64,000 nucleotides of DNA. Source: Gammaproteobacteria bacterium (GTDB lineage: Bacteria; Pseudomonadota; Gammaproteobacteria; Eutrophobiales; Eutrophobiaceae). This document shows positions 5,686 to 27,349 of the stretch, piece after piece; position 1 is the stretch's first letter, and every line of letters begins with the position of its first letter. The DNA lies in the NCBI GenBank assembly GCA_026710545.1, contig JAPOQU010000061.1, positions 1 to 64,000 of the forward strand, written 5' to 3'. Under the pieces are notes generated by a model. The model worked only from the letters and a program-made list of their open reading frames with translations. It ran no database searches and had not been told where the DNA came from. The translations under genes were made by a program, and so were the position numbers.

Positions 5686-6660
5686 ATGAAAACGAGCGAC
5701 ATCTCCACCCCACTCCGGTGGGATCAGCGATATAAAAGTATATCTCGCATGCCTGACCCGAACACCGAATTTCTGGATATGCTGAAGAAAACTTGTATTA
5801 AGGTTGATAACAGCGAGCAGTTATCTCCCGAAGAATTAGCTGACTGGATGAAGGAAGGGGCGCAACGCAACAGCCAATTTACCTCTGATTGTGTGAAATT
5901 TCTTCTAAGAGCAAGACTTATCGAACAAGAAAACAACGGTATCCTACGACTTCCCGAATTAATGTCTCGTTGGATAGAGACCAAAGACAACAATATACCT
6001 ATAGCACTCATACACCGCCACATCAGGTTTATCGGCGAGATGCTAGCAGAATTGAAGGAACCAAAGACCGTTATTGATTTGCTTAACGTTGCAGTGAAGA
6101 AGTACAAATTCGACTGGGGGCAAAACCAGCAGGTAAAAAGACGATGCAGTTGGCTAATGTCTGCTGGACTGATTATGCCCGAGGATGGCAGTAATCGTAT
6201 GCGCAATAGTACCCCTTTGAGACTCACCCCTTCGGGCAGCGACCTGCTTCACCAACTGGACATATACATTCCTAGATTTGGCGGTGATGCCTCAAGCAAC
6301 CTGCTGCCTGAAGAAGTCGAGGCACCAGAGCAGTATAAAGAAGGGGCAACCAGAACTGTAACAATTAATGCGTATGAGCGGAACGTGGACGCCAGGAAAC
6401 AATGTATAAGACATCACGGTTATAAATGTTCAGTATGCTCTTTCGATTTTGAGTCAACGTACGGACCAATCGGTAAAAATTACATCCATGTGCATCATCG
6501 GGTCCCTCTCGCAGAAATTGGAACTGAATATGAGATCAATCCGCTCGAGGATCTTGTCCCAATCTGTCCAAACTGTCATGCGATGATACACAAAACCCGG
6601 GACACACTTACCATTGAGCAACTAAAGCAATGCTTCACTGGAATAAATAGAAACTCATAA
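5686..6660 (+). CDS. HNH endonuclease-domain protein
   Basis: A 324-residue protein. The C-terminal 90 residues form an HNH nuclease: zinc cysteine pairs C248/C251 and C294/C297, the catalytic histidines in IHVHHRVPL (H270, H271), then NPLEDLVPICPNCHAMIHK. The N-terminal 200 residues look like winged-helix DNA-binding units (LTPSGSDLLHQL and the helix before it) and have no family I recognise. HNH proteins of this kind often act as McrA-like or solitary restriction nucleases; that role is inferred. No methyltransferase gene is adjacent. The gene is A+T-rich and lies between two IS3 fragments, which suggests recent transfer. An alternative start is the ATG at 5749. Confidence 0.75.
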   Translation: MKTSDISTPLRWDQRYKSISRMPDPNTEFLDMLKKTCIKVDNSEQLSPEELADWMKEGAQRNSQFTSDCVKFLLRARLIEQENNGILRLPELMSRWIETKDNNIPIALIHRHIRFIGEMLAELKEPKTVIDLLNVAVKKYKFDWGQNQQVKRRCSWLMSAGLIMPEDGSNRMRNSTPLRLTPSGSDLLHQLDIYIPRFGGDASSNLLPEEVEAPEQYKEGATRTVTINAYERNVDARKQCIRHHGYKCSVCSFDFESTYGPIGKNYIHVHHRVPLAEIGTEYEINPLEDLVPICPNCHAMIHKTRDTLTIEQLKQCFTGINRNS

Positions 6661-6679: not shown

Positions 6680-6867
6680 TGAACCGCCCCGGATCTGCCG
6701 GCGACTCCATTTCTTGAGAGAATAGAATAATGAACAGACACAAACTCTATCCCCTGGACATCCGGGAACGGGGCGTGCACCTTGTCCTTGAGCATCAGGA
6801 GAACTATCGCTCAGAATGGGCCGCACTGACTTCCATCGCCGAGCTATATATTCCCGTCTATACCTAA
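6680..6867 (+). pseudogene. IS3-family left end with orfA fragment
   Basis: TGAACCGCCCCGGATCTGCC at 6680 fits an IS3-group left inverted repeat. It is followed 50 bp later by an ATG at 6730 and about 39 codons of OrfA (LDIRERGVHLVLEHQENY then SEWAALTSIAEL). Similarity ends at about 6850, where the frame runs into unrelated sequence and stops at 6867. The helix-turn-helix and all of orfB are missing. The 146 bp from 6868 to 7013 hold nothing I recognise. Confidence 0.7.
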
Positions 6868-7013: not shown

Positions 7014-8024
7014 TTATTGTACTTTTACGTGTTGTATCATTGCGTTTACAACACCATTCGTATGCGTTACGTTTATGGAGATTTCCGGGTACTGGTGTTT
7101 AAACACCCGGAAAACCTCATCCGCGAAACCCTGGCCTATTGAATTGACACCTTTAAAATCGAGCATGATTTCTCGAAATTTGTGGAGGTTATGAGTTAAA
7201 CGGCGTCCTTCCGACCGGGATATATATTCGGACTGAAGCAGTTTTACCAATATCCTGGTTTTCTGAAACTGGTAGTCGTAATCCTGCGGTGCGAACTCAT
7301 TAAAAACCTCCTCCAGCATCTGCCGTGCAGTCCGCCTGATAGAAAATCTGACCAGTGTCCCTTTCAGGCTTCTTATTTGCGACACAAAAGTATCATCTTT
7401 GTTTCTGTCCCATTCCATGCCTATGCGATGTGAGCGCAATTCAAATGTGTCGGCAATTTTTGATGTAAAGAATATTCCCTCTCCCGTATGTGCTGAAGGC
7501 ATGGTCGTTATCCTGCCTTTAATCAACTCCAGCATTGCGGCATTTTCATCCTCGAGCTGGAACTTCGAAGCAATTGAATGGAATATACCTATACCATAAT
7601 CACGTATCTCAAAATTTATTGTTCCCGGCTCGAGTGTTACTGATATTCTACCCAGGTCTGTTTTTGCATGATCGATGGCGTTGTTCAACATCTCGGTAAA
7701 CGCATAATGAATGATTGCATCAACATTGGGCTTCAGTTCCGATTTCAGGTTTAATGTCGTTGACATGATGTCGTACATGATGCTTTCATCGGTTGAACCC
7801 AGTTGCACTGGCCTTGAAAATGTGGAGGAAGGTAAGGTAGCGTCCCCCGGATAATATTGCGCATTTTTTGTGGAACCGGTTTTAATGACTTTGCCTGCAG
7901 CAATCAGCTCTTTTAAATGGACACTTAATGCCTGCCGGCTGATGCCCAGGTACTGTGTCAATTGTGTCCCGGTGGAGGGCGCCGATGATTTCAGGTGGGC
8001 AAGGATTTTCTCTTTTCTGTTCAT
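7014..8024 (-). CDS. Winged-helix / GHKL ATPase / STAS-like regulator
   Basis: A 336-residue soluble protein with three parts. Residues 1-65 form an ArsR- or MarR-like winged helix (GTQLTQYLGISRQALSVHLK). The middle is a histidine-kinase-type ATPase fold with an N-box (TEMLNNAIDHA), a D-x-G-x-G motif (DYGIGI) and a GEGIFF lid. The end matches a DUF4325-type STAS-like domain (LDFKGVNSIGQGFADEVFRVF). There is no phospho-accepting histidine, so it is probably a switch-like regulator. I start it at the ATG at 8024; the frame stays open to a TTG at 8048, but that TTG lies inside an operator repeat. It is divergent from the hydrolase at 8189 across a repeat array and probably controls itself and that gene. 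Confidence 0.75.
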   Translation of the reverse strand: MNRKEKILAHLKSSAPSTGTQLTQYLGISRQALSVHLKELIAAGKVIKTGSTKNAQYYPGDATLPSSTFSRPVQLGSTDESIMYDIMSTTLNLKSELKPNVDAIIHYAFTEMLNNAIDHAKTDLGRISVTLEPGTINFEIRDYGIGIFHSIASKFQLEDENAAMLELIKGRITTMPSAHTGEGIFFTSKIADTFELRSHRIGMEWDRNKDDTFVSQIRSLKGTLVRFSIRRTARQMLEEVFNEFAPQDYDYQFQKTRILVKLLQSEYISRSEGRRLTHNLHKFREIMLDFKGVNSIGQGFADEVFRVFKHQYPEISINVTHTNGVVNAMIQHVKVQ

Positions 8025-8041
8025 GTTGCAAGAATCATTAT

Positions 8042-8144
8042 TTGTCAACTAATTGTCAATTTATAAAAAAATAATTGTCAATATGATATGTGCAGCCTGG
8101 TGATTTGTCAATTAATTGTCAATAATGAAATAAATATTTGTCAA
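8042..8144. promoter_or_regulatory. Duplicated TTGTCAA operator array
   Basis: Six exact TTGTCAA heptamers lie at 8042, 8053, 8075, 8105, 8116 and 8138. They form two sets of three with identical inner spacing (11 and 22 bp), offset by exactly 63 bp, so each set faces one side of the helix. The blocks 8042-8081 and 8105-8144 are about 80 percent identical, so the array arose by duplication. On the minus strand each heptamer reads TTGACAA, close to a -35 box. The array fills the space between the wHTH-ATPase regulator and the hydrolase and is the likely binding site of that regulator. Confidence 0.7.
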
Positions 8145-8188
8145 CCCAGTAACAGCAGGCAACTCCATATAAATCAATAACTGAAACC

Positions 8189-9079
8189 ATGTTTGCCGAT
8201 TTCGAACGCACGTCTCAACCTGTTAACGGTATTAACATTCACTACCGCATCGGGGGTTCAGGGCCGCCCCTGTTGCTGCTTCACGGGCACCCGCAAACCC
8301 ATGTCATGTGGCACAAGGTCGCCGGACAACTCACAGACCATTTCACGGTGGTTGCCGCGGACCTGAGAGGTTATGGCGACAGCGACAAGCCCCCTGTATC
8401 GGAAAAGAATCACCCGTATTCAAAACGCGAAATGGCGCTGGATCAGGTCGGGTTGATGAGTTCCCTGGGTTTTGGCCGCTTCGACATCCTGGCGCATGAC
8501 CGGGGCGCGCGGGTCTCTCACAGGCTGGCGCTCGATCACCCTGGAGCCGTCAACCGCATGATCCTGCTGGACATCGCGCCAACCCTGTCCATGTATGAAC
8601 AGACCACGGAGGAATTCGCCAGGGCATACTGGCACTGGTTTTTCCTCATACGTCCGGCGCCGTTGCCTGAAACACTGATAACGGCGGACCCGGAGAACTA
8701 CCTGCGCACCATGTTGTTCAGGCTCAGTGCGGGAGGGAATCCGTTTACCGGTGAGGCGATTGCCGAATACCTGCGTTGCCTGAGACTGCCCGGTACTGCT
8801 GCCGGGAATTGCGAAGACTACCGGGCCAGTGCGGGTATCGACCTGGAGCATGACCGGCAGGACAGGGCCGCGGGAAACAGGATAACCTGCCCCCTGCTCG
8901 TGTTATGGGGCACGGAAGGCGTTATAGGAAAGTTGTTTAACCCGTTGCAGGAATGGGAAAAAGTGGCCGATGACGTGCAAGGCGCCGGACTGCCGTCGGG
9001 TCATTTCATCCCGGAGGAGATCCCGGGAATTTTGCTTGAACATGTATTGAACTTTCTACATTATGCGAACAGGCAATAA
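8189..9079 (+). CDS. Haloacetate dehalogenase-type alpha/beta hydrolase
   Basis: A 296-residue alpha/beta hydrolase. The nucleophile is aspartate D104 in HDRGAR, not serine, with the two arginines (R105, R108) that bind the carboxylate in fluoroacetate dehalogenases. The acid is D128 (LLDIAPT) and the base H272 (SGHFIPEE). H149 and W150 in YWHWFF, with Y211, match the halide pocket. The length fits. The family converts haloacetates to glycolate plus halide in the cytoplasm; some members are epoxide hydrolases, so the true substrate is open. It follows the operator array and is 14 bp from the flavoprotein gene, with which it is probably co-transcribed. Confidence 0.8.
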   Translation: MFADFERTSQPVNGINIHYRIGGSGPPLLLLHGHPQTHVMWHKVAGQLTDHFTVVAADLRGYGDSDKPPVSEKNHPYSKREMALDQVGLMSSLGFGRFDILAHDRGARVSHRLALDHPGAVNRMILLDIAPTLSMYEQTTEEFARAYWHWFFLIRPAPLPETLITADPENYLRTMLFRLSAGGNPFTGEAIAEYLRCLRLPGTAAGNCEDYRASAGIDLEHDRQDRAAGNRITCPLLVLWGTEGVIGKLFNPLQEWEKVADDVQGAGLPSGHFIPEEIPGILLEHVLNFLHYANRQ

Positions 9080-12046: not shown

Positions 12047-12052
12047 CCTGGA

Positions 12053-12147
12053 GCAAATTTAGGACACCCATAAATTGTCACTTTTCCGCAATTCATGGGT
12101 GTCCCAAATTGCTACTTTTCCGAAATTCATGGGTGTCCCAAATTGTT
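12053..12147. repeat. 34-bp direct repeats with inverted copy, possible terminator
   Basis: Two adjacent 34-bp copies (12080-12113 and 12114-12147) share ATTCATGGGTGTCCCAAATT, differing at about two bases. An inverted copy, AATTTAGGACACCCATAAATT, lies at 12054-12074 (21 bases with two changes). The inverted copy can pair with either direct copy to give a 20-bp stem, so two alternative hairpins are possible. It fills the gap between two convergent genes and may end transcription from both sides. Confidence 0.7.
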
Positions 12148-12149
12148 AT

Positions 12150-12905
12150 TTATTCGCTGTCTGTCTGGCTTGTCAACTGGAATGATTTGAGGAAATCAAT
12201 TGGGATGGGGAAGGCGATGGTGGAACTTTTCTCCCCGGCAATCTCGGTGAGGGTCTGCAGGTAGCGTAACTGCATGCTGTTGTTGTTCTTGCCAAGCACC
12301 GTGGCGGCTTCCAGCAGTTTCTCGGAGGCCTGCAACTCGCCCTCGGCGTGGATGATCTTGGCGCGCCGCTCGCGTTCTGCCTCCGCCTGCCTGGCAATGG
12401 CCCGGATCATGCTCTCGTCCAGGTCGACGTGCTTGATCTCTACGTTGGCCACCTTGATGCCCCAGGCGTCGGTCTGCTTGTCCAGGTCCGACTGGATATC
12501 GTTATTGAGCCGTTCCCGCTGCGACAGCATGTCGTCCAGTTCGTGTTTGCCCAGCACCGCGCGCAAGGTGGTTTGCGCCAGTTGGCTGGTGGCTTCATGG
12601 AAATTCTCCACCTGGATGATGGCGCGTTCCGGATCGATCACCCGGTAGTAGAGCACCGCGTTGACTTTGACCGACACGTTGTCCCTGGAGATGACGTCCT
12701 GGCTGGGCACGTCCATGGCGATGGTGCGCAGTTCCACCCGCTCAAGCTGTTGCACGATCGGGATGATGATGATCAGCCCCGGTCCTTTCACCGACGTGAA
12801 GCGGCCGAAAGTGAAGACCACTGCGCGTTCGTATTCGCGCAGGATCTTGATGAACATGGGCAACAGGATGGCAAGGCCGATAATCAGGTACAGGTAAGTC
12901 ATCAT
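12150..12905 (-). CDS. SPFH/band 7 protein, slipin
   Basis: A 251-residue membrane-anchored SPFH protein. An N-terminal hydrophobic segment (residues 3-20) is followed by the band 7 domain ([20 protein letters not shown], then [20 protein letters not shown]) and a charged helical oligomerisation region ([19 protein letters not shown]). Slipins form ring assemblies on the inner membrane and work with an NfeD protease. The nfeD gene lies directly upstream, overlapping by 4 bp (ATGA), the standard operon for this pair. The exact cellular role is not settled; membrane-domain organisation is usually inferred. Confidence 0.9.
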
Positions 12906-14299
12906 GAGGATTCCTCCGGTGCTGGTTCGACATGCAGGATCAGGCCGTCCCTGCCGGTGACGCGAGCATTGTCACCGCCACGCATGGGCGTGTCGGATTG
13001 TGCGTTCCATTGCTCGCCATGGATATAAATGACCCCCGTACCGCTGAAGTCGGCCGCGATGCGGCCTGTAGCGCCGATGAGCTCTTCTGAGCCCGCCACC
13101 ACGGGACGTTGCCTGGACGCGTACAGTGAACGGATCACGACGAGGAAAAAGCCTGCGGACAACACGGAGACCGCAATGATCAAGGGCATTGAAACGGCAA
13201 TATTGCCGCTTTCCCGGTCGAACAGCAGGATGGAGCCCAGGACAAAGGAGACAATGCCGCCGATTCCCAGGATGCCGAAGCTGGGCATGAACAGTTCCCC
13301 GACTATGAGCGCAACTCCCAGGAACATCAGTCCCAGGCCGGCGTAGTTCACCGGCAGCACCTGCAGTGCGTACAGGGCCAGCAATAACGATACCCCGCCT
13401 ATGACCCCGGGCAGGACGTAACCGGGATTGGCCAGTTCGAAGAACAGCCCGTAAATGCCCAGCAGCATCAGGATATAGGCGATATTCGGGTTGGTAATGA
13501 TGGCCAGCAGTTCGTTGCGCCAGTCAGGCTCGATGGCTTCCACGATCAGGCCGCCGGTGTTCAGCGTCCGTTCCCCGTTCTGCAAGGACACCGTTCTGCC
13601 GTTCACCTGTTGCAGCAGATCGGCGATATCCCCGGCAATAATGTCGATCACGCCGGCTTCCAGGGCTTGCTCGGAGGACAGGCTGACTCCTTCCCGCACT
13701 GCCTGTTCCGCCCATTCCGCATTGCGCCCGCGCATCTCGGCCAGGCTGCGGATATAGGCCGCGGCATCGTTTACTATCTTCTTGGTCATCGCGTCCGCGT
13801 TGCTCAACGGGTCTTTCGGCGCTTCCTTGTCCTCACCCTTGTCCGCTGTTTCGGGACCGGCCTCATCGTCCGCCGCGCCCGGGGCAGGTTTTTCCGGCGG
13901 CTCCATACCGGGCATGCCGCCCATCTGCACGGGGGTGGCAGCGCCCAGGTTGGTGCCCGGCGCCATGGCCGCAACATGTGCGGCATACATCATGTAGGTG
14001 CCGGCGCTGGCAGCGCGCGCGCCGGAAGGCGCCACATGGATGGCGACCGGTACCGGGGAGGCGATGGTGGCGCGGATAATGCTGCGCATTGACAGGTCCA
14101 GGCCGCCCGGCGTATCCAGTTGAATAATAACGATTTCCGCGCCCGCGTCGTTGGCCTTGTCGAGACCGCGTTCGATGTAATCAGCGATTGCCGGACCGAT
14201 GGCGTCATTGACGCTGAGCAGGATTGCCTTGTCGCGCGTCTCTGCGTGAAGCAGTGCCGCTGCCAACATTACGACAAGAACTGCAAGCAACTGGCGCAT
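12902..14299 (-). CDS. nfeD: NfeD-family membrane serine protease
   Basis: A 465-residue protein from the ATG at 14299, which has a signal peptide ([19 protein letters not shown]) and GGAAAA-like purines before it; the frame is open to 14329. A ClpP-class serine protease domain carries the catalytic serine in [10 protein letters not shown] and the lysine in [15 protein letters not shown]. An unusual acidic, proline-rich stretch of about 50 residues ([18 protein letters not shown]) separates them. Four or five membrane helices follow, then a C-terminal NfeD OB-fold. Family members cleave the C-terminus of their partner slipin, here the next gene. Confidence 0.88.
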
Positions 14300-14329
14300 G
14301 TTTTTCCGGTTAAATCGGGTCTCCGGCAT

Positions 14330-14947
14330 TCAGTTGATGGGTTTGATCGCCTTTATGGTTTTGACGATATCGAGGAACAGGTTGTTCACTTCCGTCACTT
14401 CAAATCCGGCCGCCCTGACGTTTCCCACGGTGTTCCTGTTCATGTCAGGACCAATTTTGCTGGTAATGATCGTCATGAAATCCAGCATGTATTTAAAGGG
14501 AAAATACCGGCTCCCCGTATGCTCGAACATGCACAGCGAGCCGCCCGGTTTCAACACGCGGTTCAATGCCTGTAACGCGGCAACCGGATTCGGCACGGAG
14601 CAGAAGGTACAGGATGTGAACACCTGGTCAAAGTGGTTGTCCGGGTACGGCAGTTCATGGACATCCACCAGTTCGGCTTGGATTTCTCCGTCGTAGTCGT
14701 TGATGCGCGGTTGCGCCCGTTTCAGCATTTCCGGACTGATATCGATGGCCGTAATCGTCATGCCGGGCGGGAATGCCGGTATATCCAGTCCGGTGCCCAG
14801 GGAGGCAAACAGTATATTGCCGGGCTGCATGTGGCTGAACAACGCGCTCTTGAACGGGAGCCAGCGTTTCAGTTCGCCGGTGCCGGTCATCAGGTCAAGG
14901 CTGGCTGCGGCCTTGTTCCACTTGTCTTGTGTGGCCAGGTCGACCAT
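14330..14947 (-). CDS. Class I SAM-dependent methyltransferase
   Basis: A 205-residue Rossmann methyltransferase. Motif I is ASLGTGLDIPAFPPG, the acidic residue ending strand 2 is in AIDISPEML, the motif II region is PDNHFDQVFTSCTFCSV, and motif III is LNRVLKPGG. It resembles UbiE- and phospholipid-N-methyltransferase-type enzymes (MLDFMTI and the methyltransf_11 fold), but the substrate is unknown. It overlaps the membrane-protein gene upstream by one base and ends directly before the nfeD frame, so it is likely part of the same transcript. Confidence 0.8.
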   Translation of the reverse strand: MVDLATQDKWNKAAASLDLMTGTGELKRWLPFKSALFSHMQPGNILFASLGTGLDIPAFPPGMTITAIDISPEMLKRAQPRINDYDGEIQAELVDVHELPYPDNHFDQVFTSCTFCSVPNPVAALQALNRVLKPGGSLCMFEHTGSRYFPFKYMLDFMTIITSKIGPDMNRNTVGNVRAAGFEVTEVNNLFLDIVKTIKAIKPIN

Positions 14948-15330
14948 CAGTTAATCTCGGTTAAGCTGATGCCGCGCAGGCATGCATTGACGAGCCAGAT
15001 GATACAGGTCACGGCAAGCCCGGTGATCGCGCCAAGCCAGACCAGGTGCATGAGGGGAACCGCCGTCATGGCCAGCCACATGGCGCTGATCATCCCGCTG
15101 AACATGCCGGTCAGCATGACCGGCACCATGACTTCCATGGCGCCGAAAAATATGCTCAAAACCAGCGACAGGAACAGGCCTGCCACCATTCCCAGCGCCA
15201 TCATCACGATCATGGCGATAAACATGTTCCAACCGGTGCTGATTAACGGCACGGCCGAGATGGCGATGAGGATGCCGGCGCCAAGATTCGATACCAGATC
15301 GCCGACTATGAAATAGAGCCTGTTGTCCAT
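14947..15330 (-). CDS. Small polytopic membrane protein
   Basis: A 127-residue protein with four likely membrane helices (about residues 8-28, 33-62, 64-92 and 95-117) and very few charges, rich in methionine. I recognise no family. It is the first gene of the minus-strand group methyltransferase-nfeD-slipin and overlaps the methyltransferase start by one base, so the two are probably co-translated. It could be a membrane partner of the methyltransferase; that is only context. Confidence 0.65.
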   Translation of the reverse strand: MDNRLYFIVGDLVSNLGAGILIAISAVPLISTGWNMFIAMIVMMALGMVAGLFLSLVLSIFFGAMEVMVPVMLTGMFSGMISAMWLAMTAVPLMHLVWLGAITGLAVTCIIWLVNACLRGISLTEIN

Positions 15331-15496
15331 GATGTAAGCAAAGTTGTCCGCACAGCTTATATATTAAGACAATTTGGCTGGTTTGGGTATGATCATGGAC
15401 TCCGGTCGATCAACAGGGCTGTTAGTGAACTTTTTTCCTGTTGCCAGTCTAAAATTAATATTGTCTAATAACAAAATGAAAACATGGCTGAAGTGA

Positions 15497-15826
15497 ATGT
15501 ATCTTCTGACTGCCCTTGTAATAGCCGCCTCTGTATTTGACGTTTCGTCATCAATACAATATCCCTCCGCTGCGCCCAGTGCGCGGTCGCTAAACCCTGC
15601 CCCGTTTATCCTCGCCCAGGAATACGAAAACGACGATAACAAGCCGAAACCTGAAACCACCAGCATTCAATTACCCGCCCAGAGTCAGGAATTCCGGGAC
15701 AACAGAAGGTGTATGACAGTCTGTTCCGGTTGGGGAGAAGAGTGTGTAGTGGTCGACACCGAAGCGGACTTTGTAACCCGTAAGTGCATGCGAACCTGTA
15801 CGTCGTTCGCCGAGGAATGTCTCTGA
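15497..15826 (+). CDS. Small exported protein with duplicated three-cysteine motif
   Basis: A 109-residue protein with a hydrophobic N-terminus that could be a signal peptide (residues 1-19), a low-complexity polar middle, and six cysteines at the end. The cysteines fall in two matching units, C72-x3-C76-x6-C83 and C97-x3-C101-x6-C108, both reading CMxxC and ending EEC. This internal repeat argues for a real, selected protein, perhaps disulfide-bonded in the periplasm or metal-binding. No ribosome site is obvious before the ATG. I do not recognise the family. Confidence 0.55.
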   Translation: MYLLTALVIAASVFDVSSSIQYPSAAPSARSLNPAPFILAQEYENDDNKPKPETTSIQLPAQSQEFRDNRRCMTVCSGWGEECVVVDTEADFVTRKCMRTCTSFAEECL

Positions 15827-15912
15827 ATAGACTGTCCCGTGTATAATAACGGGAGAGGAAACCGGAGCAACAGTCCCGCAGGCCTGCTCTGCGTTTCCTT
15901 CGTAGTTATGCA

Positions 15913-15997
<85 letters not shown>

Positions 15998-16079
15998 TAT
16001 CTGGGGTCAGAGTAAAAATACGTTCGTGTTGACAGGCGACGGATTGTTGTCGAGTATTTTTACTCTGACCCCAAATATC
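15998..16079. repeat. 82-bp hairpin element, GGGGTCAGAGTAAAAAT arms
   Basis: The arms 15998-16020 and 16055-16079 are near-perfect inverted copies (GGGGTCAGAGTAAAAATA against TATTTTTACTCTGACCCC) around a 34-base spacer. A second element of the same plan lies at 50871-50954. It starts directly at the CCA end of tRNA-Leu and ends 23 bp before tig. It is a palindromic repeat of the REP or miniature-element kind; its mobiliser is not in the window. Confidence 0.8.
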
Positions 16080-16102
16080 AATCCGTATACAGGATAAAAA
16101 AT

Positions 16103-17428
16103 ATGTCAGTAGCAGCAGAAACAACAAGCTCTCTTGAGAGGAGCGTCACGGTGGATGTGCCGGAGGAACGTATCTCCAGCGCAGTGGAAGAACGGCTTAA
16201 ATCCATGAGCAGGACCAGCCGGGTACAGGGGTTTCGCCCGGGCAAAGCGCCCCTGCGCGTGATGAAGCAGCGCTTCGGCGCCCAGGTCCGCAAGGAGGTG
16301 GTGGAAAAGCTGGTCACCTCGTCCTTTTACGAGGCAGTGAACCGGGAGGAACTGAAACCCGTCGGCATGCCGTTGATTGACCCCTTGCAGGAGAAGGTCG
16401 GTGAGGGCCTGTCCTATACCGCGACCTTTGAGGTGTTGCCGGAAATCAAGCTCAACCCCGTCGAAAAGCTGGAAATAGAAAAACCAGTTTGTCCCATCGC
16501 CGACGTCGACATCGACGGGATGATAGAAAGGCTGCGCCGGCAGCGGCGTGATTTCCGCGTGGAGGAACGCGCCGCGCAGGACGGCGACAGGGTCAACGTG
16601 AATTGCCGGGGGCAGGTCGACGGCGAAGCGCTCGATAACCTCACGATGGAGAACGTGGATATCGAGTTGGGTCAAAATCAGTTTATCCCGGGCCTGGAGG
16701 AGGGGCTGATAGGCGCCTCTGCCGGCCAGTCGCTTACCCTGGACCTGACGTTTCCGGACGATTACAGTAATGAAGAACTGGCCGGCAAGCCGGCGCTGTT
16801 TGAACTGGAGGTCAATCACGTCGCGCAGGCCGTCCTGCCCGAGCTGGACGCGGCGTTCTTCGAAGCGTTCGGCGTGAAAGACGGAGATGAGCAGGCGTTC
16901 AGGCAGGAGATCCGCCAGCACATGGAACGGGAAATCGAGGCCGCGACCCGGACCCGCTTCCGGGACGAGATAATGAAGTCCCTGTACGAGGCCAACGAGA
17001 TAGAATTGCCCAACACCCTGGTAAACGCGGAATTCCAGCGCATGCGGAACATGTTTATCAAGGATATGAGTGAGCGCGGCCTCTCCAGCGAGGCATCTTC
17101 CGAGCTGCTGGACTCCGATTACGTGCAGAACACGGCCAGGCGCCAGGTCACCCTGCAATTGCTCACCGCGCAGATCATCAGTTCACAACAACTGAGCGCC
17201 AACCCTGAAAAAGTCAGGGAAATCATAGAGAAAAGAGCACAAAGTTATGAAGATTCTGCAGCCCTGGTCAATTGGTATTATAATGACAAGGAACGCCTGG
17301 CGGAGGTAGAAGCCCTGGCGCTTGAAGACGAGGTAATTAACTGGGTTGCCTCCAAGGGCGCGGTAAAAGAAGTGCCGCTGTCGTTTGACGAACTGATGAA
17401 TAAAGGGCAGACTCACCAACATGCATAA
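16103..17428 (+). CDS. tig: Trigger factor
   Basis: A 441-residue ribosome-bound chaperone and peptidyl-prolyl isomerase; the E. coli protein has 432. The N-terminal ribosome-binding domain has the signature [20 protein letters not shown], the FKBP domain has [14 protein letters not shown] and [16 protein letters not shown], and the C-terminal helical cradle fills the rest. It meets nascent chains at the ribosome exit. It is followed by clpP with an 8-bp overlap, so folding and proteolysis genes are translationally linked, then clpX and lon. Confidence 0.97.
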
Positions 17429-18059
17429 ATCGGAAATACAGGCGCTCAACCTGGTTCCCATGGTTGTGGAACAGACTTCGCGCGGCGAGCGCGCCTATGA
17501 TATTTATTCCCGCCTGTTGAAGGAACGGGTGGTGTTCCTGGTGGGGCCGGTCGAGGACCACGTGGCCAACCTGATTGTCGCCCAGTTGCTGTTTCTCGAA
17601 TCGGAGAACCCGGACAAGGATATCCATTTTTATATCAATTCACCGGGCGGGTCGGTTTCTGCGGGTCTTGCGGTTTACGATACCATGCAGTTTATCAAGC
17701 CGGACGTCAGTACCATGTGTGTCGGCCAGGCGGCCAGTATGGGCGCGCTGCTGCTCGCCGGCGGTACCGAAGGTAAACGCTTTTGTTTACCGCATTCGCG
17801 GGTTATGATCCATCAACCCCTGGGGGGTTTCCAGGGGCAGGCGACGGATATCGATATACACGCAAGAGAGATTTTGAAGGCGCGCGAGAGGCTTAACGAG
17901 ATTCTCGTCAAGCACACCGGGCAATCTATTGATAAAATACAGCAGGACACGGAGCGTGATAAGTTTATGAGTTCGGAAGAGGCAAGCGACTATGGGCTGG
18001 TCGACGCGGTGCTGTCGACGCGCCAGTCTGCGCCGGTTCCGGAAGATGCGTCCAGCTAG
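17421..18059 (+). CDS. clpP: ATP-dependent Clp protease, proteolytic subunit
   Basis: A 212-residue serine protease. The catalytic serine is in [14 protein letters not shown], the histidine in [10 protein letters not shown], and the aspartate follows in the [12 protein letters not shown] region. It forms a 14-subunit barrel that degrades substrates fed by ClpX, encoded 49 bp downstream. The ATG at 17421 lies inside the last codons of tig. The length and order match other gammaproteobacteria. Confidence 0.97.
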
Positions 18060-18107
18060 CGTCGGAGGGCGGATAACAGGCAACTTCAATGATTCGCAAG
18101 GTAAGTT

Positions 18108-19394
18108 ATGAGCGGCAACAAACAAGGTAAGGCAGGCGAAGGCGACAGGCTTCTTTACTGTTCGTTCTGCGGCAAAAGCCAGCATGAGGTGCGTAAACTG
18201 ATCGCCGGTCCGTCCGTATTTATCTGTGATGAATGCGTCGAGCTGTGCAATGACATCATCTGGGAGGAAATCCAGGAGCGCTCGATTTCCGGGGCTGCCA
18301 GCACCTTGCCGACCCCCCATGAAATCAACGATATTCTGAACGAGTACGTCATCGGCCAGGATATCGCCAAGAAAATCCTGTCGGTTGCGGTTTACAACCA
18401 CTACAAGCGTCTTGACCAGGGCGTGAAGAAGTCCGACGTGGAACTGGCGAAGAGCAACGTCCTGCTCATCGGCCCCACCGGCAGCGGCAAGACCCTGCTG
18501 GCGGAGACCTTGGCGCGCCTGCTCAACGTGCCGTTTACCATTGCCGACGCCACGACACTGACCGAGGCGGGTTACGTGGGCGAGGACGTCGAGAATATTA
18601 TCCAGAAGCTGCTGCAGAAATGCGACTACGACGTGGAAAAAGCCCAGACGGGCATCGTCTATATCGACGAAATAGACAAGATTTCCCGTAAATCCGATAA
18701 CCCGTCCATCACCCGCGATGTCTCCGGTGAGGGTGTGCAACAGGCCCTGCTGAAGCTGATCGAGGGTACCGTGGCGTCTGTCCCGCCGCAGGGAGGACGG
18801 AAACATCCGCAGCAGGAGTTCCTGCAGGTGAACACGGCCGATATCCTGTTTATTTGCGGCGGCGCGTTTGCCGGGCTGGACAAGATTATCCGGGAACGCT
18901 CGGAAAAGGCCGGTATCGGCTTCTCCGCGGAAGTGAAGAGTCTGTCGGACCGCAAGAGCTTGAGCGCCCTGATCCAGACCGTCGAGCCTGAAGACCTGAT
19001 CAAGTACGGCCTTATCCCGGAGTTTGTCGGCCGTCTGCCGGTCGTTGCCACCCTGGATGAACTGGATGAAGAGCAACTCGTCAAGATCCTGCTCGAGCCG
19101 AAGAACGCGCTGACCAAGCAGTACGAACGCATGTTCGACATGGAAAACTGTGAAATAGAATTTCGTGATGATGCGCTGCGCAAAGTCGCCAGGAAATCCA
19201 TGGAACGGAAAACCGGCGCCCGCGGCCTGCGCTCGATCATGGAAAATGTATTACTTGATACCATGTACGACCTGCCGTCAACGGAAGGAGTCACGAAGGT
19301 GGTGATTGACGCAGGTGTGATTTCCGGCGAGTCCAACCCGTTGATGATCTACGAAGGCGGCGAACTGCCAAAGGCGGCGTCGGACGCGGATTAG
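18108..19394 (+). CDS. clpX: Clp protease ATP-binding subunit ClpX
   Basis: A 428-residue AAA+ unfoldase. An N-terminal C4 zinc domain (YCSFCGK, then CDECVELC) binds adaptors and some substrates. The Walker A is [10 protein letters not shown], the Walker [10 protein letters not shown], and a [13 protein letters not shown] block and C-terminal sensor region follow. ClpX unfolds tagged proteins into the ClpP barrel. A possible heat-shock promoter for lon lies directly after it, so lon can be expressed on its own. Confidence 0.97.
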
Positions 19395-19414
19395 CGACCG
19401 AGGGCGGTCCGGAC

Positions 19415-19441
19415 CTTGAAATCCGTTTTGGTCGCCCCCAT
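19415..19441 (+). promoter_or_regulatory. Sigma-32-like heat-shock promoter of lon
   Basis: CTTGAAA at 19415-19421 and CCCCAT at 19436-19441 are separated by 14 bases, matching the RpoH -35 and -10 elements in sequence and spacing. The bases after CCCCAT (AAG) depart from the best consensus. It lies 33 bp upstream of the lon start and fits the known heat-shock control of lon. Confidence 0.7.
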
Positions 19442-19473
19442 AAGTAGTAGAAATCACATAATCATGAGCTGAG

Positions 19474-21891
19474 ATGTCTACAGAGTCCGACCTGCAAATG
19501 CAAGTGTTACCCGTTTTGCCATTACGCGACGTAGTGGTGTATCCCTATATGGTGATTCCGCTGTTCGTCGGGCGGGAGAAGTCCATCAAGGCGCTGGACA
19601 CGGCGATGGCCGGCAACAAGCAGATCCTGCTGGTTGCCCAGAAAAGCGCCGGTGAGGATGACCCCGGGACCGATGAGATCTACGACATCGGGTCGATGTC
19701 CAATATCCTGCAGTTGTTGAAGTTGCCCGACGGCACCATCAAGGTGTTGGTGGAGGGAGCGCAGCGCGCCCGCGTAGTCGATTTTATCGAGACGGATTCG
19801 ATGTTTTTCGCGAACACGGAATTGCTGGATGAGGAACTGCCGGATGACCGGGCTGTGGAAATACTGTTACGGCCGGCTTTGAACCAGTTTGAGCAATACG
19901 TCAAGCTGAACAAGAAAGTCCCCCCCGAAATCCTGTCTTCACTGTCCAGTATCGACGATCCCTCACGCCTCGCCGATACCATCGCCGCGCACATGTCGAT
20001 CAAGATCGAGGAGAAGCAGGTGGTGCTGGAAAAGCTGGACGTGCGTGAACGCCTGGAATACCTGATCAATCTCATGGAAACGGAGATTGACCTGCTGAAT
20101 GTTGAAAAGCGCATTCGCGGACGGGTCAAGTCGCAAATGGAAAAAAGCCAGCGCGAGTACTACCTGAACGAGCAGATGAAGGCGATCCAGAAGGAGTTGG
20201 GCGAGATGGATGAAGCGCCCAACGAGATGGAAGAGTTGAATGAAAAAATCGCCAAGTCCGGCATGCCCAAGGACACCAGGAAAAAAGCGGACGCCGAACT
20301 GAACAAACTGAAGATGATGCCGCCCATGTCTGCCGAGGCAACGGTGGTGAGGAATTACATCGACTGGCTGGTAAACGTTCCCTGGAAGAAGCGCAGCAAG
20401 ATCTCACGGGATATCACCAAGGCGGAGCAGATCCTGGAAGAAGATCATTACGGCCTGGATAAGGTCAAGCAACGCATCCTGGAATACCTGGCCGTACAGC
20501 AACGGGTGAGAAAACCCAAGGGCCCCATTTTGTGCCTGGTCGGTCCCCCCGGAGTCGGAAAAACGTCACTTGGCCGCTCCATCGCCAGGGCCACGAACCG
20601 GAAATTCATCCGCATGTCCCTGGGTGGCGTGCGGGACGAGGCCGAGATCAGGGGGCACCGGCGCACCTATATCGGCTCACTGCCGGGCAAGATCCTGCAG
20701 AGCATGGCCAAAATCGGCACGAAAAACCCGTTGGTGCTGCTGGACGAAGTGGACAAGATGGCGATGGATTTTCGCGGCGACCCGGCTTCCGCGTTGCTGG
20801 AAGTCCTGGACCCCGAACAAAACCATACGTTTGTCGACCATTACCTGGAGGTGGATTACGACCTGTCCGAGGTGATGTTCGTGACGACGGCCAACAGCCT
20901 CAATATCCCGCCGGCGCTGCTGGATCGCATGGAGGTCATCCGTATTTCCGGTTACACGGAAGACGAGAAGATCAATATTGCCCGCAACTACCTGATCCCC
21001 AAGCAAATGGAACGCAACGGCCTGAAGAAGGAAGAAGTCAGCCTCGGTGATGCCTCGGTCAGGGATATCGTACGCTACTACACCCGTGAAGCGGGGGTCA
21101 GAAACCTGGAGCGGGAAATAGCCAATATCTGCCGCAAGGTCGTTACCCGGTTATTGCAAAAAAAGGATCTGAAACGGATGTCCGTGACGGCGGCCAGGCT
21201 GGAGAAGTTAATCGGCGTCAAGAAATTCCGTTACGGGCGCGTGGAGGAGCAGGACCGGATAGGGCAGGTAACCGGGCTTGCCTGGACCGAGATAGGCGGC
21301 GACCTGCTGACCATCGAAGCGACCGTGGTGCCGGGCAAGGGCGAAGCCATCCGTACCGGCCACCTCGGAGACGTGATGAAGGAGTCCATCGAGGCGGCGC
21401 GCACCGTGGTGCGCAGCCGTTGCGAGATACTGGGCATCGATGCGGATTTTTACAAGGAGAGCGATTTCCATATCCATGTTCCCGAAGGCGCTACGCCCAA
21501 GGACGGACCCAGCGCCGGCGTGGCAATGTGTACCGCACTGGTATCGGCCCTGACCAATATCCCGGTGAAGGCAAACGTCGCCATGACCGGTGAGATAACC
21601 CTGCGCGGGGAGGTATTGCCCATCGGCGGACTGAAGGAAAAACTGCTGGCGGCACTGCGCGGCGGCATAGAAACAGTCCTGATACCCTCCGAGAACGAGC
21701 GGGAACTGATAGAGATCCCCCGGAACATCAAGCAGAACCTGGAGATCAAGCCGGTACGCTGGATCGACGAGGTGCTGGAAATAGCCCTGCACCACATGCC
21801 CCGCCCGCAGGCGGAGGAAGGCGAAACCGCAATCGTGCAAAAGGAAGCAGTGGTGCCGGACGAGGGCCAGGAAGCGATACTTCCGCATTAA
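19474..21891 (+). CDS. lon: ATP-dependent protease La
   Basis: An 805-residue Lon protease (784 in E. coli). It has the N-terminal substrate-binding domain ([20 protein letters not shown]), a coiled-coil arm, an AAA+ module (Walker [11 protein letters not shown], Walker [11 protein letters not shown]) and the protease domain with the serine in [11 protein letters not shown] and the lysine in [11 protein letters not shown]. It degrades misfolded and short-lived regulatory proteins. The extra C-terminal 20 residues are poorly conserved in type. In most relatives hupB follows; here it does not. Confidence 0.97.
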
Positions 21892-21918
21892 AAAAGCCGC
21901 TGTTCCTGCTCAAGTTTA

Positions 21919-21991
21919 GCCCTGCGAAAGCAGGGGCAGGCATCCGGAAATTCAGGAATCCAATATACCCATGAGTCACCGGAAGTGACTC
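21919..21991. terminator. Two hairpins between convergent lon and brnA-like gene
   Basis: CCCTGC-GAAA-GCAGGG at 21920-21935 and GAGTCAC-CGGAA-GTGACTC at 21973-21991 are perfect stems, the first with a GNRA loop. Neither has a long T run, so intrinsic termination is uncertain. Their place between two convergent genes suggests a bidirectional stop. Confidence 0.45.
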
Positions 21992-21992
21992 G

Positions 21993-22232
21993 TTACTTCC
22001 ACTGCATATCAAGTTTTCTTTTGTTTATCGCACAATCCCTCAGATAAAGATTTATAAGGGTTTGATAAGGAATGCCGGATTCCTCGGACATCGATTTAAA
22101 ATACTCCACGGAATCCGTATCCAGTCGCATTGTGACAGGCTGTTTCAGGTACTTGATGTAAGGGTTTTTTTTGCCCTTCATTTTCGAAAAATCGTAGTGG
22201 TCTCTCATCTTCTGATTTAACAGTATTTTCAC
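21993..22232 (-). CDS. BrnA-like antitoxin, no toxin partner seen
   Basis: A 79-residue protein matching the BrnA/CopG-like antitoxin pattern: a basic N-terminus (HYDFSKMKGKKNPY) and the DNA-binding core LKQPVTMRLDTDSVEYFKSM then GIPYQTLINLYLRDCA. BrnA represses its own operon and neutralises the BrnT RNase, which is normally encoded directly upstream. Here the upstream bases (22233-22304) hold only a tRNA gene and no BrnT frame, so it is an orphan. AAGGTG lies just before the ATG at 22232; an internal ATG at 22208 is an alternative start. Confidence 0.7.
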   Translation of the reverse strand: MKILLNQKMRDHYDFSKMKGKKNPYIKYLKQPVTMRLDTDSVEYFKSMSEESGIPYQTLINLYLRDCAINKRKLDMQWK

Positions 22233-22304
22233 CTTGTAGGTTATATCGTACCCATAGATTGCAAGTGTTCAAGGATTTTGTTTTTTTGTTATAATACGTC
22301 CGCT

Positions 22305-22380
22305 GGGTGCTTAGCTCAGTTGGGAGAGCGCCGCCCTTACAAGGCGGAGGTCGTGGGTTCAAGCCCCTCAGCACCCACCA
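22305..22380 (+). tRNA. tRNA-Val (UAC)
   Basis: A 76-base tRNA with encoded CCA. The acceptor GGGTGCT pairs with AGCACCC, the anticodon is TAC in CCTTACAA, and the T loop is GTTCAAGCC. It is separated by 6 bases from tRNA-Asp, and the two are surely transcribed together. Confidence 0.97.
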
Positions 22381-22386
22381 GTTTAT

Positions 22387-22463
22387 GGAGTGGTAGTTCA
22401 GTTGGTTAGAATACCGGCCTGTCACGCCGGGGGTCGCGGGTTCGAGTCCCGTCCACTCCGCCA
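22387..22463 (+). tRNA. tRNA-Asp (GUC)
   Basis: A 77-base tRNA with encoded CCA. The acceptor GGAGTGG pairs with CCACTCC, the anticodon is GTC in CTGTCAC, and the T loop is GTTCGAGTC. It is followed by a strong terminator 42 bases later. Confidence 0.97.
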
Positions 22464-22505
22464 GACATCAGATATAACGTATTGTCTTTTAAAGAAAAAT
22501 TATAG

Positions 22506-22540
22506 CAGGCGGAGTGGGCAATCACTCTGCCTGTTTTTTT
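22506..22540 (+). terminator. Rho-independent terminator of the tRNA operon
   Basis: An 11-bp stem with one G-T pair (CAGGCGGAGTG at 22506-22516, CACTCTGCCTG at 22523-22533) is followed directly by seven T. From 22541 to 22708 I see no gene, only the upstream region of the selenoprotein gene with a TATAAT at 22673-22678. Confidence 0.9.
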
Positions 22541-22708
22541 ATGGAGAGTCATCCGCCTCGCGCATGTGCCCGCTTGTTATTGGCGCCTGTGAGAAGGCCG
22601 GTGTGCAGTACCGGGTATTTCGATAGTATGGCCGTGTCATAATTCTGTGTGTTCTTCTTGTATAACAACAAGTATAATGGACCCGGCTTCTGAAACTGAC
22701 AGCAGGAT

Positions 22709-23289: not shown

Positions 23290-25194
23290 ATGTTACAGAC
23301 GATAAGAGACCAGGTGAAAGGCTGGCTGGCCGTAGTGATTTTCACCATCATGATCATTCCCTTCGCGTTCTGGGGTATCAACTATTATTTCGACCAGTCC
23401 GGCGGGGTGACCGTGATTGATGTCAACGGCGAAGAAATTTCCCTTGCGGACTACCAGAGCGCCTACCAGGACATACGCCAGCAGTGGCAATCCATAACCG
23501 GTGCGCCGGTCGGCGAAGAGACTGAAGCGCTGATTAAACAGCGGGCGACCGAAGACCTGATACAGACGGCGTTGCTGAACCAGGCCGGGAATGAGGCCGG
23601 TTTGTTCGTGGGCGAAGAGGAGGTTTGGGAGATTATCCGCCAGATCCCCCAGTTCAACGATGACCAGGGATTTAACATCGCCCAGTTTGAACTCGCCGCC
23701 AACCGCAACGGGCTGTCCCCTGCGGGCTTCCTGACCCGGATAAGACAGGATATGGCAATCGAGCAACTGCGCAGTGCGCTGTTCGCGACGGACTTTGTAA
23801 CGGGATCCGAGCTTACCGCGTTATCCGGCATCATGCACCAGACCCGTGATTTCGTCTGGTCGACCATCTCTTCTGACGAACTGAAGGAAACCATCGAGGT
23901 GACGGACGAACAGGTCCAGTCATATTTTGATGAAGAAGGCCGCTTCATGGACCCGGAACAGGTCCGGATTGCCTACCTGGTGCTGTCCCTCGCCAAAATC
24001 GCCGAGGAAGTCTACCTTGAAGAGGGTGAGCTTGAGAGCTACTTCAGCGACAACAGGCACAATTACGAGGTGGAGGGAACCCGCAACATCAGGCAGGTCT
24101 TCGTCAAGCTGCCGGAGGAGCCTTCCGAGGCGGAAGTCGGGGAGATGAGGGCGAAGGCAGACGAGTTGTACGCGCTGGTCAGCGGCGGTGAAGATATGGA
24201 AGAAGTTGTGGTAAATGAATCCGGCGAACACGGGGATTCCATTGAGTTCAGCGAATTCGGCTTTCTCACGAAAGGCGCGCTGGAGCCGGAAGCCGACGAG
24301 GTTGCCTTCTCCATGGCAGCGGGAGAGATCAGTGAGCCGGTACAATCCGCGGTTGGTTTCCATATCATGGCTGTCGATGAGATCCAGGGGGGCACCGAAG
24401 CTGCGCTGGTTGACATCCGTGAAGAAGTGGAACAGGACCTGCGGGAAGAGAAGGCGGCGCAGCAACTGTATGAACTCAGCGACCGGCTGTCGGTCCTGAC
24501 CTATGAAAGTCCTGATACCCTGGATATCGCGGCGGAAGAACTGGAACTCCAGGTGCAGAAGAGCGACTTTATCAGCAGGGAAGACCCGGGTGTCGGTATC
24601 GTTTCAGAACCGGGTGTCGTTGAAACGGCGTTCACCGATGAAGTGTTGCTGGAGGAAAATAACAGCGAACTCATCGAACTGGATAACGACCGTTACATGG
24701 TCTTGCGCGTCCTGGAACACCGGCTTCCCATGAAACAACTGCTTGAGGACGTGCGGGACGAAATCGTTACCCGGTTAAAATTCGAGCAGGCGCGGGACCG
24801 GACCCGGGAGCAGGGCGAGGCAGTCCTCGAGCAACTGGAGCTGGGCAAGTCAAAGGAGGAGGTGGCCCTGGAATTCGGCCTCAACTGGAACAACGCCACG
24901 GATGTTACCCAGGATGATGAGACTATCAACCGGGCCGTGTTGCGCACCGCATTCAGGGCCGGCGTACCGGAGGCTGATCAGCCCCTCCATGACGGCGCTT
25001 CCCTGGGGACCGGGGACTACACCGTCGTCATTGTCTATTCCGTTAACGAGGCGGACCCGGATGCCATAAACGAAGATGAACAGAACATCGTGCGCAGCCA
25101 GTTACTGCAGGCAACCACCGCCTCTGCCTGGGCGGAATTCAACAGGAACCTGCGGGCAAAAGCCGATGTCACGGTTTACGAGGACATGCTCTAG
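23290..25194 (+). CDS. ppiD: Periplasmic folding chaperone PpiD
   Basis: A 634-residue protein anchored by one N-terminal membrane segment (about residues 13-34), with the bulk in the periplasm. A SurA_N-like chaperone region is followed by one parvulin domain (RNIRQVFVKLP through EFGFLTKGALEPEADEVAFS to VGFHIMAVDEI, about residues 262-385) and a second chaperone lobe. PpiD sits at the SecYEG exit and helps fold exported proteins. In relatives the order is lon-hupB-ppiD; here tRNAs and the selenoprotein gene lie between. The length matches E. coli (623). Confidence 0.9.
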   Translation: MLQTIRDQVKGWLAVVIFTIMIIPFAFWGINYYFDQSGGVTVIDVNGEEISLADYQSAYQDIRQQWQSITGAPVGEETEALIKQRATEDLIQTALLNQAGNEAGLFVGEEEVWEIIRQIPQFNDDQGFNIAQFELAANRNGLSPAGFLTRIRQDMAIEQLRSALFATDFVTGSELTALSGIMHQTRDFVWSTISSDELKETIEVTDEQVQSYFDEEGRFMDPEQVRIAYLVLSLAKIAEEVYLEEGELESYFSDNRHNYEVEGTRNIRQVFVKLPEEPSEAEVGEMRAKADELYALVSGGEDMEEVVVNESGEHGDSIEFSEFGFLTKGALEPEADEVAFSMAAGEISEPVQSAVGFHIMAVDEIQGGTEAALVDIREEVEQDLREEKAAQQLYELSDRLSVLTYESPDTLDIAAEELELQVQKSDFISREDPGVGIVSEPGVVETAFTDEVLLEENNSELIELDNDRYMVLRVLEHRLPMKQLLEDVRDEIVTRLKFEQARDRTREQGEAVLEQLELGKSKEEVALEFGLNWNNATDVTQDDETINRAVLRTAFRAGVPEADQPLHDGASLGTGDYTVVIVYSVNEADPDAINEDEQNIVRSQLLQATTASAWAEFNRNLRAKADVTVYEDML

Positions 25195-25220
25195 TCCAAA
25201 CGATCCGCCGGTACGGGCTG

Positions 25221-26426
25221 TTATTTAAAACAGAACTTTTCAACCACCGTCGAGCCGACGCTGTCACCCCATACGTTTACCGTCGTCCGCAGCCGGTCCA
25301 GGAACCAGTCCACGGCCAGTAACAGGCCGATGCCTTCCATCGGCAGACCCACGGCGGTCAGTACGATCACCATGGTGACCAGGCCGGCCTCGGGAATGCC
25401 GGCCGCGCCGATCGCGGCCAGGGTGGCGGTAATGAAGATCAGCACCTGGTCCATGGGCATCATGTGGATGCCGTAGGCCTGGGCGATAAACATCACGGCC
25501 ACTGCCTCGTACAGGGCGGTGCCGTCCATGTTCACCGTGGACCCCAGGGGCAGGACGAACTTGGCCGCCCGTTTATCCACGTTGGCTTCCAGTGCGCATT
25601 CCATTGTCAGGGGCAGGGTTGCCGTTGAACTGGCGGTGCCGAACGCGGTTACCAGGGCCTTGGACATCGTGGTGATGAACTGGCGCCCGCGCCGGCTGAC
25701 GACAATCAGGATCGTCATCAACACGAAAAAGTGCAGGGTCAGACCGATGATGACCGTCAGCATGTACTTGCCCACGCCCAGGATTTCCCGCCAGAAATGC
25801 TCGCCGCCGCCGCTGTCGCCAAGCTTTGATGAAATCAGGGCAAAAATACCGATGGGGGCAAAATACATGATCCAGACGACGATTTTTATCATCACGTCAT
25901 TCATGCCATCGAAGAAAGCGACCAGAGGTTTGCCCCTTTCCCCGACCGTTGTCAGCGCAGCGCCGAACAGGATGGAAAACACGATCACTTCCAGCAGCTT
26001 GGTTTCGGCCGCCGAGGCAACGATGTTATCGCCTATCAGCGAACGGATGATCTCCACGATCCCGGTCTCTTCCTTGCCGCTGACACGGTCCGGAACCACC
26101 TGGCTCACTTCGGTGATACCGGCGCCGGGCTGGATGATATTCACGATAATCAGTCCCAGCAGGACCGCGATTGCAGTGGTGCAGAAATAGTACAGCACGG
26201 TCAGCCCGCCCAGCCGTTTCAGCCCGCCTGAAGCCCCGCCCAAAGAAGCGATGCCGCTGATGACCGCGGCGACGATGAGCGGGATGATGACCATTTTCAG
26301 GGCATCCAGGAACAACTCGCCCACCCATTCAATGGCAAGCATCGATTGACCGAAGAACCAGCCGCAGAATATGCCGGAAATGGCCGCGGTGAGCAGCGCC
26401 CATAACAACCAGTTATTATTTTTCAT
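25221..26426 (-). CDS. Dicarboxylate/amino acid:cation symporter (DAACS)
   Basis: A 401-residue inner-membrane carrier of the glutamate/aspartate-dicarboxylate family. Signature blocks are [20 protein letters not shown] near the N-terminus, the serine-rich hairpin [19 protein letters not shown], and [20 protein letters not shown], which binds substrate and cation. It takes up C4-dicarboxylates or acidic amino acids with protons or sodium; the exact substrate is not readable. It converges on ppiD and has its own upstream space of 66 bp after fabI. Confidence 0.88.
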
Positions 26427-26492
26427 GTATAAAAAGCCCTTGATATTCAGTAAGATAAAATTTTCTGTTCAGAAACGGAGACCAGTCTGTAA

Positions 26493-27278: not shown

Positions 27279-27349
27279 ACTTACCCCTTGTTTATCCTGA
27301 TACACATAAAATTATTCTGCCACGCATCAGTGTAATTGTACATCTGCAG

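Follow-up and report, generated by a model that had tools for sequence, protein, structure and literature searches.

A compact set of repeated heptamers lying between two divergent genes raises the question of which protein would read it and which gene it would serve. In the window, as the whole 64-kb stretch of DNA under analysis is called here, the word TTGTCAA starts at positions 8042, 8053, 8075, 8105, 8116 and 8138, always on the plus strand, giving by word match six putative operator sites (8042-8048, 8053-8059, 8075-8081, 8105-8111, 8116-8122 and 8138-8144; TTGACAA on the regulator strand) with successive steps of 11, 22, 30, 11 and 22 bp. They are placed between a regulator gene on the minus strand (7014-8024) and a divergent alpha/beta hydrolase gene on the plus strand (8189-9079). 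The first-pass annotation had described two sets with steps of 11 and 22 bp shifted by 63 bp, and both the positions and the repeated trio spacing were found again: sites 4-6 have the layout of sites 1-3 displaced by 63 bp, with 83% identity between the two 42-nt sets. The word occurs 13 times in the window against 8.35 expected, 6 of the 13 being packed into 103 bp. By arithmetic at 10.5 bp per turn the sites stand at 0, 1.05, 3.14, 6.0, 7.05 and 9.14 turns, so the earlier remark that all of them face one side of the helix holds to within about 50 degrees. Since TTGTCAA is palindromic apart from its centre base, the polarity of the array depends on a single base; family-wide this polarity is strong, the regulator strand carrying TTGACAA 174 times and TTGTCAA 13 times. 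The duplication by 63 bp, or six turns, is a local feature, and the number of sites beside homologs ranges from 2 (L003) to 8 (L004).

The regulator gene is taken to start with an ATG at 8024, an in-frame TTG being also present at 8048. According to Pfam, an AlphaFold2 model (mean pLDDT 88) and fold matches, its product joins a winged helix, a SpoIIAB-like GHKL ATPase and a STAS-like DUF4325 region, as had been proposed from the letters. The winged helix (about residues 3-64; 7836-8021, minus strand) matches structures of the MarR/ArsR/Z-alpha type with Z about 10. The ATPase domain (about residues 66-234; 7326-7832, minus strand), assigned by structure match and alignments, has SpoIIAB as its best match to the model in the PDB, with Z 14.2 over 135 residues. 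Its ATP-site residues are near-invariant: E112, N115, N116, D143, G145, G147, G182 and G184 are kept or nearly so in two alignments that each include the window protein (35 and 70 rows), and the domain would presumably use ATP. The STAS-like region (residues 236-337; 7017-7322, minus strand), carrying the motif IGQ[GA]FADE, was recognised by Pfam and by a fold match over about residues 255-337; modelled alone, the C-terminal part matched RsbS (Z 8.7, 80 residues), RsbV (8.6) and SpoIIAA (7.8), and nearly all of its top structure matches were STAS domains. The Pfam matches were PF14213 (E=5e-15), HATPase_c_2 (E=2e-8) and MarR_2 (E=3e-6), the 55.3 bits scored by DUF4325 (PF14213) lying above its curated cut-off of 23. 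No receiver domain is among these Pfam matches. Against PADLOC defence families the regulator gave partial matches only, mostly to the winged helix and at best E 9e-6; as no family spans the whole protein, an anti-phage defence gene was rejected.

The IGQ[GA]FADE loop is taken here to correspond to the serine region of SpoIIAA, an equivalence drawn from the known motif and not from structure superposition. With this assumption, position 299 is Q in 104 of 105 rows and position 300 is G or A in 103 of 105. Because Ser and Thr are nearly absent from the presumed acceptor position, classical partner-switching by a kinase is doubtful, and the conservation of the loop would speak against serine phosphorylation of the classical kind.

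The gene is far from unique to this genome. Among 58 relatives including the window's own genome, a homolog was found in 5 of the 57 others, each time with the motif upstream (5/5); the class sample contained homologs in 31 of 369 genomes and the phylum sample in 7 of 398 (G000 counted in both). Scans for related loci with one protein as query gave no match. When 84,980 species genomes were scanned with a profile, at least 497 relatives stood among the 588 pattern matches listed, and the best 80 of these at least 497 made up the species-genome homolog set. The listed relatives belong to Gammaproteobacteria, Nitrospirota, Acidobacteriota, desulfobacterial groups, Spirochaetota and Omnitrophota, and further include many Patescibacteria and one Nanoarchaeota bin. 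Thirty regulator loci were found in 2.9 million viral contigs, several of them at or near contig ends; three homologs used as queries against 72,556 plasmid records gave no match, phages gave none either, and a phage or plasmid gene was rejected on these grounds.

Homologous regulators without any such repeats would have counted against the array being their operator, and upstream DNA was compared for 116 loci (38 + 78), or 112 once near-copies were removed, the latter drawn from about 30 groups of phylum rank. Rows with a missing N-terminus (L041, L044, L117, L128), a match without locus (G237) and duplicates or near-copies (L024, L093, L095, L101) were left out. The proposal survived: direct-repeat spacings upstream of the homologs form a comb at 11, 21-23, 32-35, 43-44 and 54-56 bp, the controls being flat. 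A repeat was present at 11 bp in 42% of the 112 loci, at 22 bp in 35%, at 23 bp in 27%, at 34 bp in 24% and at 44 bp in 12%; in the 672 control stretches the figure was 1-3%. Phased-motif scores of 14 or more were obtained for 73 of 112 loci against 2 of 336 controls, and scores of 16 or more for 53 of 112 against 0 of 336, with lags picked after earlier repeats had been seen. The viral-contig loci, unused in the choice of lags, offer a partial check: 14 of 26 scored at least 8 (11 of 130 controls), and they were weaker at the high cut-off, with 3 of 26 scoring at least 14. The phased repeat is absent in 12 of the 112 loci, and the distant homologs L020, L048-L050, L135, L140 and L149 have no convincing array.

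The site words themselves vary among homologs, including TTGACAA(T), CTTTACAAT, CTTACAATT, TTGTCGA, CCTTTAAGAAA and GTTATAAT, and the variation follows the winged helix. After correction for the remainder of the protein, motif distance was correlated with winged-helix distance (partial r 0.24, p 0.001; 83 loci, 999 permutations), in a set where the motif of L111 is an unrelated tandem repeat, that of L003 is out of register, and the helix is missing from L134 and L161. The converse comparison, rest of the protein with the winged helix held constant, gave a partial r of 0.065 (p 0.053, 83 loci). The effect in this partial Mantel comparison is modest, and the control for relatedness is incomplete; nevertheless, because the motif follows the winged helix, direct binding of the sites by the regulator is supported. 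The earlier suggestion that the array is the operator of the adjacent regulator thus gains weight from arrays at the same gene in homologs and from this co-variation. Two direct sites of the GTTGACAACTT type, with an inverted copy beyond the -10, were observed upstream of L150, L151, L158, L160, L162 and L164, which are Patescibacteria, Omnitrophota and Spirochaete homologs.

Location points the same way. In the 4.4 Mb of its own genome, exact TTGTCAA-N4-TTGTCAA occurs at this array only, and when gaps of 4-26 nt are allowed the exact pairs number 6, of which 5 lie in the array and 1 elsewhere. In six regulator-bearing genomes all 10 exact TTGACAA-N4-TTGACAA pairs stand directly upstream of the regulator; there were no exact pairs in G314, where the array is imperfect, and none in four congeners lacking the regulator gene. 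Thirty-one further genomes contained 46 exact pairs (N4 or N5), 26 of them upstream of the regulator gene, 12 directly after its stop and 8 elsewhere, the search being one for exact pairs by which looser sites could be missed. Six of the 8 off-regulator pairs lie within predicted ORFs, one is intergenic, ahead of another gene (L260), and one belongs to a decayed copy of the unit in the L125 genome; stretch L266 is a 3' array of the regulator and not an off-regulator pair. The decayed copy (L125:10434-10622) is a truncated second one, located 4.5 kb away from the intact unit and comprising the array with the initial ~110 bp of the gene; it aligns over 196 bp at 79%, the array being much better preserved than the coding part. 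Pairs with up to 2 mismatches in the window's own genome numbered 13+12 against 14+17 for a reversed-pattern control, and a wider regulon in that genome was rejected since they are not commoner than in the control. At L010:1501-1575 in the same genome a one-mismatch pair, TTGGCAA-N4-TTGTCAA, is found with a further TTGACAA upstream of a HipB-like/HipA-like gene pair.

This distribution also bears on the idea of an incidental regulator standing next to OmpR-family sites such as PHO boxes, which are built as direct repeats of 7+4 bp. The PHO box has the same 7+4 layout and shares the core TGTCA, but exact pairs are not found elsewhere in regulator genomes nor in congeners without the regulator, the motif varies together with the winged helix of the adjacent regulator, and arrays occur across phyla next to unrelated neighbours. 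It is extremely improbable that this explanation is right, and the PHO box was rejected on the confinement of exact pairs to the regulator and their absence from congeners without it.

If the regulator reads the array, its position suggests what the reading would do. TTGACA is the -35 consensus, and the promoter scan predicted a sigma-70 promoter of the regulator, TTGACA-17-TATCAT, with 11 of 12 matches at 8083-8111 on the minus strand (4 promoter-like sites were found against 1.1 expected). The complement of site 4 is its -35 box; sites 5 and 6 lie upstream, and sites 1-3 fall between the -10 (TATCAT) and the start codon. Loci having two or more phased TT[GT]ACA sites number 69; in 37 of them a -10 matching at 5 or more of 6 positions follows at 15-18 nt, compared with 16% in shuffles, and in 43 a further site falls within the -35/-10 spacer. 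One repeat is thus often the -35 box, and therefore the array overlies the gene's own promoter. In many loci (L109, L110 and L114 among them) the -10 ends 3-4 nt ahead of the assigned start, start positions being approximate, so a leaderless mRNA is predicted. Self-repression would be the simplest reading of this overlap. In L019, L025, L027, L028, L033, L156 and L165, TTTACAAT repeats at 21-22 bp themselves build the promoter, the -35 (TTTACA) as well as the -10 (TACAAT).

The array could on its position equally be thought to serve the other side, as operator of the divergent hydrolase, GMC oxidoreductase and amine-oxidase-like genes: it stands between divergent genes, with the hydrolase start 45 nt away, and a weak promoter-like match on the plus strand (9/12) overlaps it. 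The first-pass annotation had proposed control of a dehalogenase-type operon, and this was not supported, for the hydrolase fits no haloalkane-dehalogenase model above cut-off and the neighbours are not conserved. The hydrolase, identified by Pfam, is a neighbour only and was not found beside homologs. Of 115 loci, at most 6 share any one neighbour family, and 17 have a gene that follows closely in the same direction. In the congeners G001, G002 and G003 the GMC gene adjoins a Band7-like gene, and neither hydrolase nor amine-oxidase-like gene nor regulator is beside it; the G001 homolog (80% identical) keeps an identical six-site layout 14 kb away, after tRNA-Asp and without the hydrolase beside it. 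Control of the divergent genes as the array's purpose is accordingly quite improbable, even if the hydrolase of the window could still be influenced by it.

The comparison with G001 shows where the conserved unit ends. Window positions 7021-8145, array and gene together, align with its locus L051 over 1126 bp at 81% identity, from the outermost site to just inside the stop codon, and the flanks are unrelated. Elsewhere the two genomes are collinear, both window 13881-22542 and window 23290-27347 aligning with L051; the G001 unit follows tRNA-Asp at the equivalent of window 22.5 kb, within about 3.2 kb of DNA missing from the window at that point. In Nitrospira the unit lies near a tmRNA gene (L103, L102, G839), and in G831, G842, G833, G851 and G847 both flanks are joined and the unit is absent. 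The Nitrospira unit is flanked on either side by a 14-15 bp word (CAAGGGGAAGCCAG or close to it), which the empty sites contain once; this imperfect repeat may be a pre-existing one. As no tRNA or tmRNA genes were found in L053, L100, L106, L110, L114 and L115 or beside the window copy, no rule of integration at RNA genes is claimed. The regulator tree, carrying 31 labelled groups, mixes phyla, with 36 label changes where the minimum is 30, a figure to be read with the caveats of bins and paralogues. It appears from these alignments that array and gene relocate between genome positions as one unit.

At L059:8900-9145 an 81-aa piece of the regulator's end, perhaps a remnant of tandem duplication, is found downstream of an intact copy. 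In the window a short ORF fragment (6731-6867), which resembles the start of an IS3-type transposase OrfA, lies just downstream of the regulator after an HNH endonuclease gene (5686-6660). Past the amine-oxidase-like gene, window 12050-12150 holds inverted and direct copies of the word GGACACCCATAAATT, also seen in L010 near 1415 and thus a dispersed repeat of this genome.

Arrays also occur at the other end of the gene. Of 80 loci, 16 have an exact word of their own array again within 150 nt past the stop (control windows: 6 of 800), and 25 of 26 such copies have the same orientation; in 12 of the 31 further genomes a pair directly follows the regulator stop codon. In L106, L110 and L114 the entire three-site array is repeated 3' (42-54 bp, 94-96%), and the repeated part mostly stops at the last site, ahead of the -10. 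The 3' copies may serve looping between arrays or may be ends of a moving segment. A bolder reading, which we hold only tentatively and consider doubtful, is that of bacteria-wide one-gene mobile units, self-repressing, with phased 5' and often 3' arrays that would be bridged into a loop or would serve as segment ends; if it were true, the whole control circuit would travel with the unit wherever it is inserted. The 3' arrays may also be taken in favour of a partition- or iteron-like nucleoprotein unit, with a main role in DNA segregation, replication or nucleoid structure and not in transcriptional control; the phased direct repeats would then be coated by many protein copies, in the manner of TubR, AspA or Rep proteins. 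Direct repeats at 21-22 bp beside a self-regulated winged-helix gene resemble iterons, and the ArsR-like AspA is among the weak PDB matches of the profile. Such a role is nevertheless unlikely: no replication-initiator family of Pfam is above threshold for the regulator, the 72,556 plasmid records gave no match to the three homologs used as queries, the homolog-bearing loci include chromosomes of 2.7-5 Mb, and the ATPase is of GHKL type, not ParA or TubZ.

Most probably, therefore, the array is the dedicated operator of a solitary, self-repressing regulator with a built-in ATPase/STAS switch, array and gene moving as one. In the proposed mechanism the winged helix would bind each TTGACAA-type site, and sites one or two helical turns apart would align the protomers on one face of the DNA. 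Because the sites overlap the regulator's own promoter, a filled array would block RNA polymerase there and so repress the gene. The SpoIIAB-like ATPase and the STAS-like domain are the most likely switch in the same chain: nucleotide binding would alter dimerisation or the ATPase-STAS contact and with it array binding, so that the pair would tune occupancy by nucleotide state or some other ligand. Formation of an oligomer and nucleotide control of array binding, as first suggested, are plausible possibilities. Array and gene would be inherited and relocated together, and would not act as controller of a fixed neighbouring operon.

No description of this protein build was found in the open-access literature searched, most subscription papers lying outside it; two papers there name DUF4325, each a single time and as a gene-table entry. 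Each part belongs to a known kind; the literature searched appears to contain no description of how they are combined, how widely the combination occurs or how its arrays co-vary. A large uncharacterised family of self-regulating genes is hereby opened to tests, and DUF4325 gains a concrete setting that can be tested, that of a "partner switch" built into one chain, whose output is DNA binding and not a sigma factor. The recognition sites can be read beside each gene, which offers dozens of natural winged-helix/motif pairs for work on specificity. The presence of so compact a unit in many phyla, including Patescibacteria bins, raises the question of whether a solitary self-regulated gene is of benefit or has a selfish property.

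Among known systems, the tandem operators of PhoB/OmpR share the 7-bp site with 4-bp spacer, head to tail at an 11-bp step, but here the protein has no receiver domain and the sites serve mainly their own gene. TubR/tubC, AspA and Rep/iteron systems have winged helices on phased direct repeats beside their own gene; the regulator differs in its GHKL ATPase, in lacking an initiator domain and in its absence from the plasmids searched. MarR/ArsR repressors, which mostly bind a single inverted repeat as dimers, have a winged helix of the same type and a comparable, here predicted, self-repression. They are stand-alone small dimers without enzyme domains, whereas in the present regulator ATPase and STAS domains follow the winged helix and long direct-repeat arrays run at 11-bp steps. 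The C-terminal domain is a DUF4325 (PF14213), for which the Pfam entry gives no function. The closest likeness in fold is to SpoIIAB/SpoIIAA and RsbW/RsbV/RsbS of Bacillus, as the SpoIIAB fold, the STAS fold and the ATP-site residues are kept; in contrast to Bacillus partner-switching, ATPase and STAS are here in one chain, the presumed STAS serine region reads IGQ[GA]FADE, the gene is solitary, and a DNA-binding domain replaces the sigma-factor partner.
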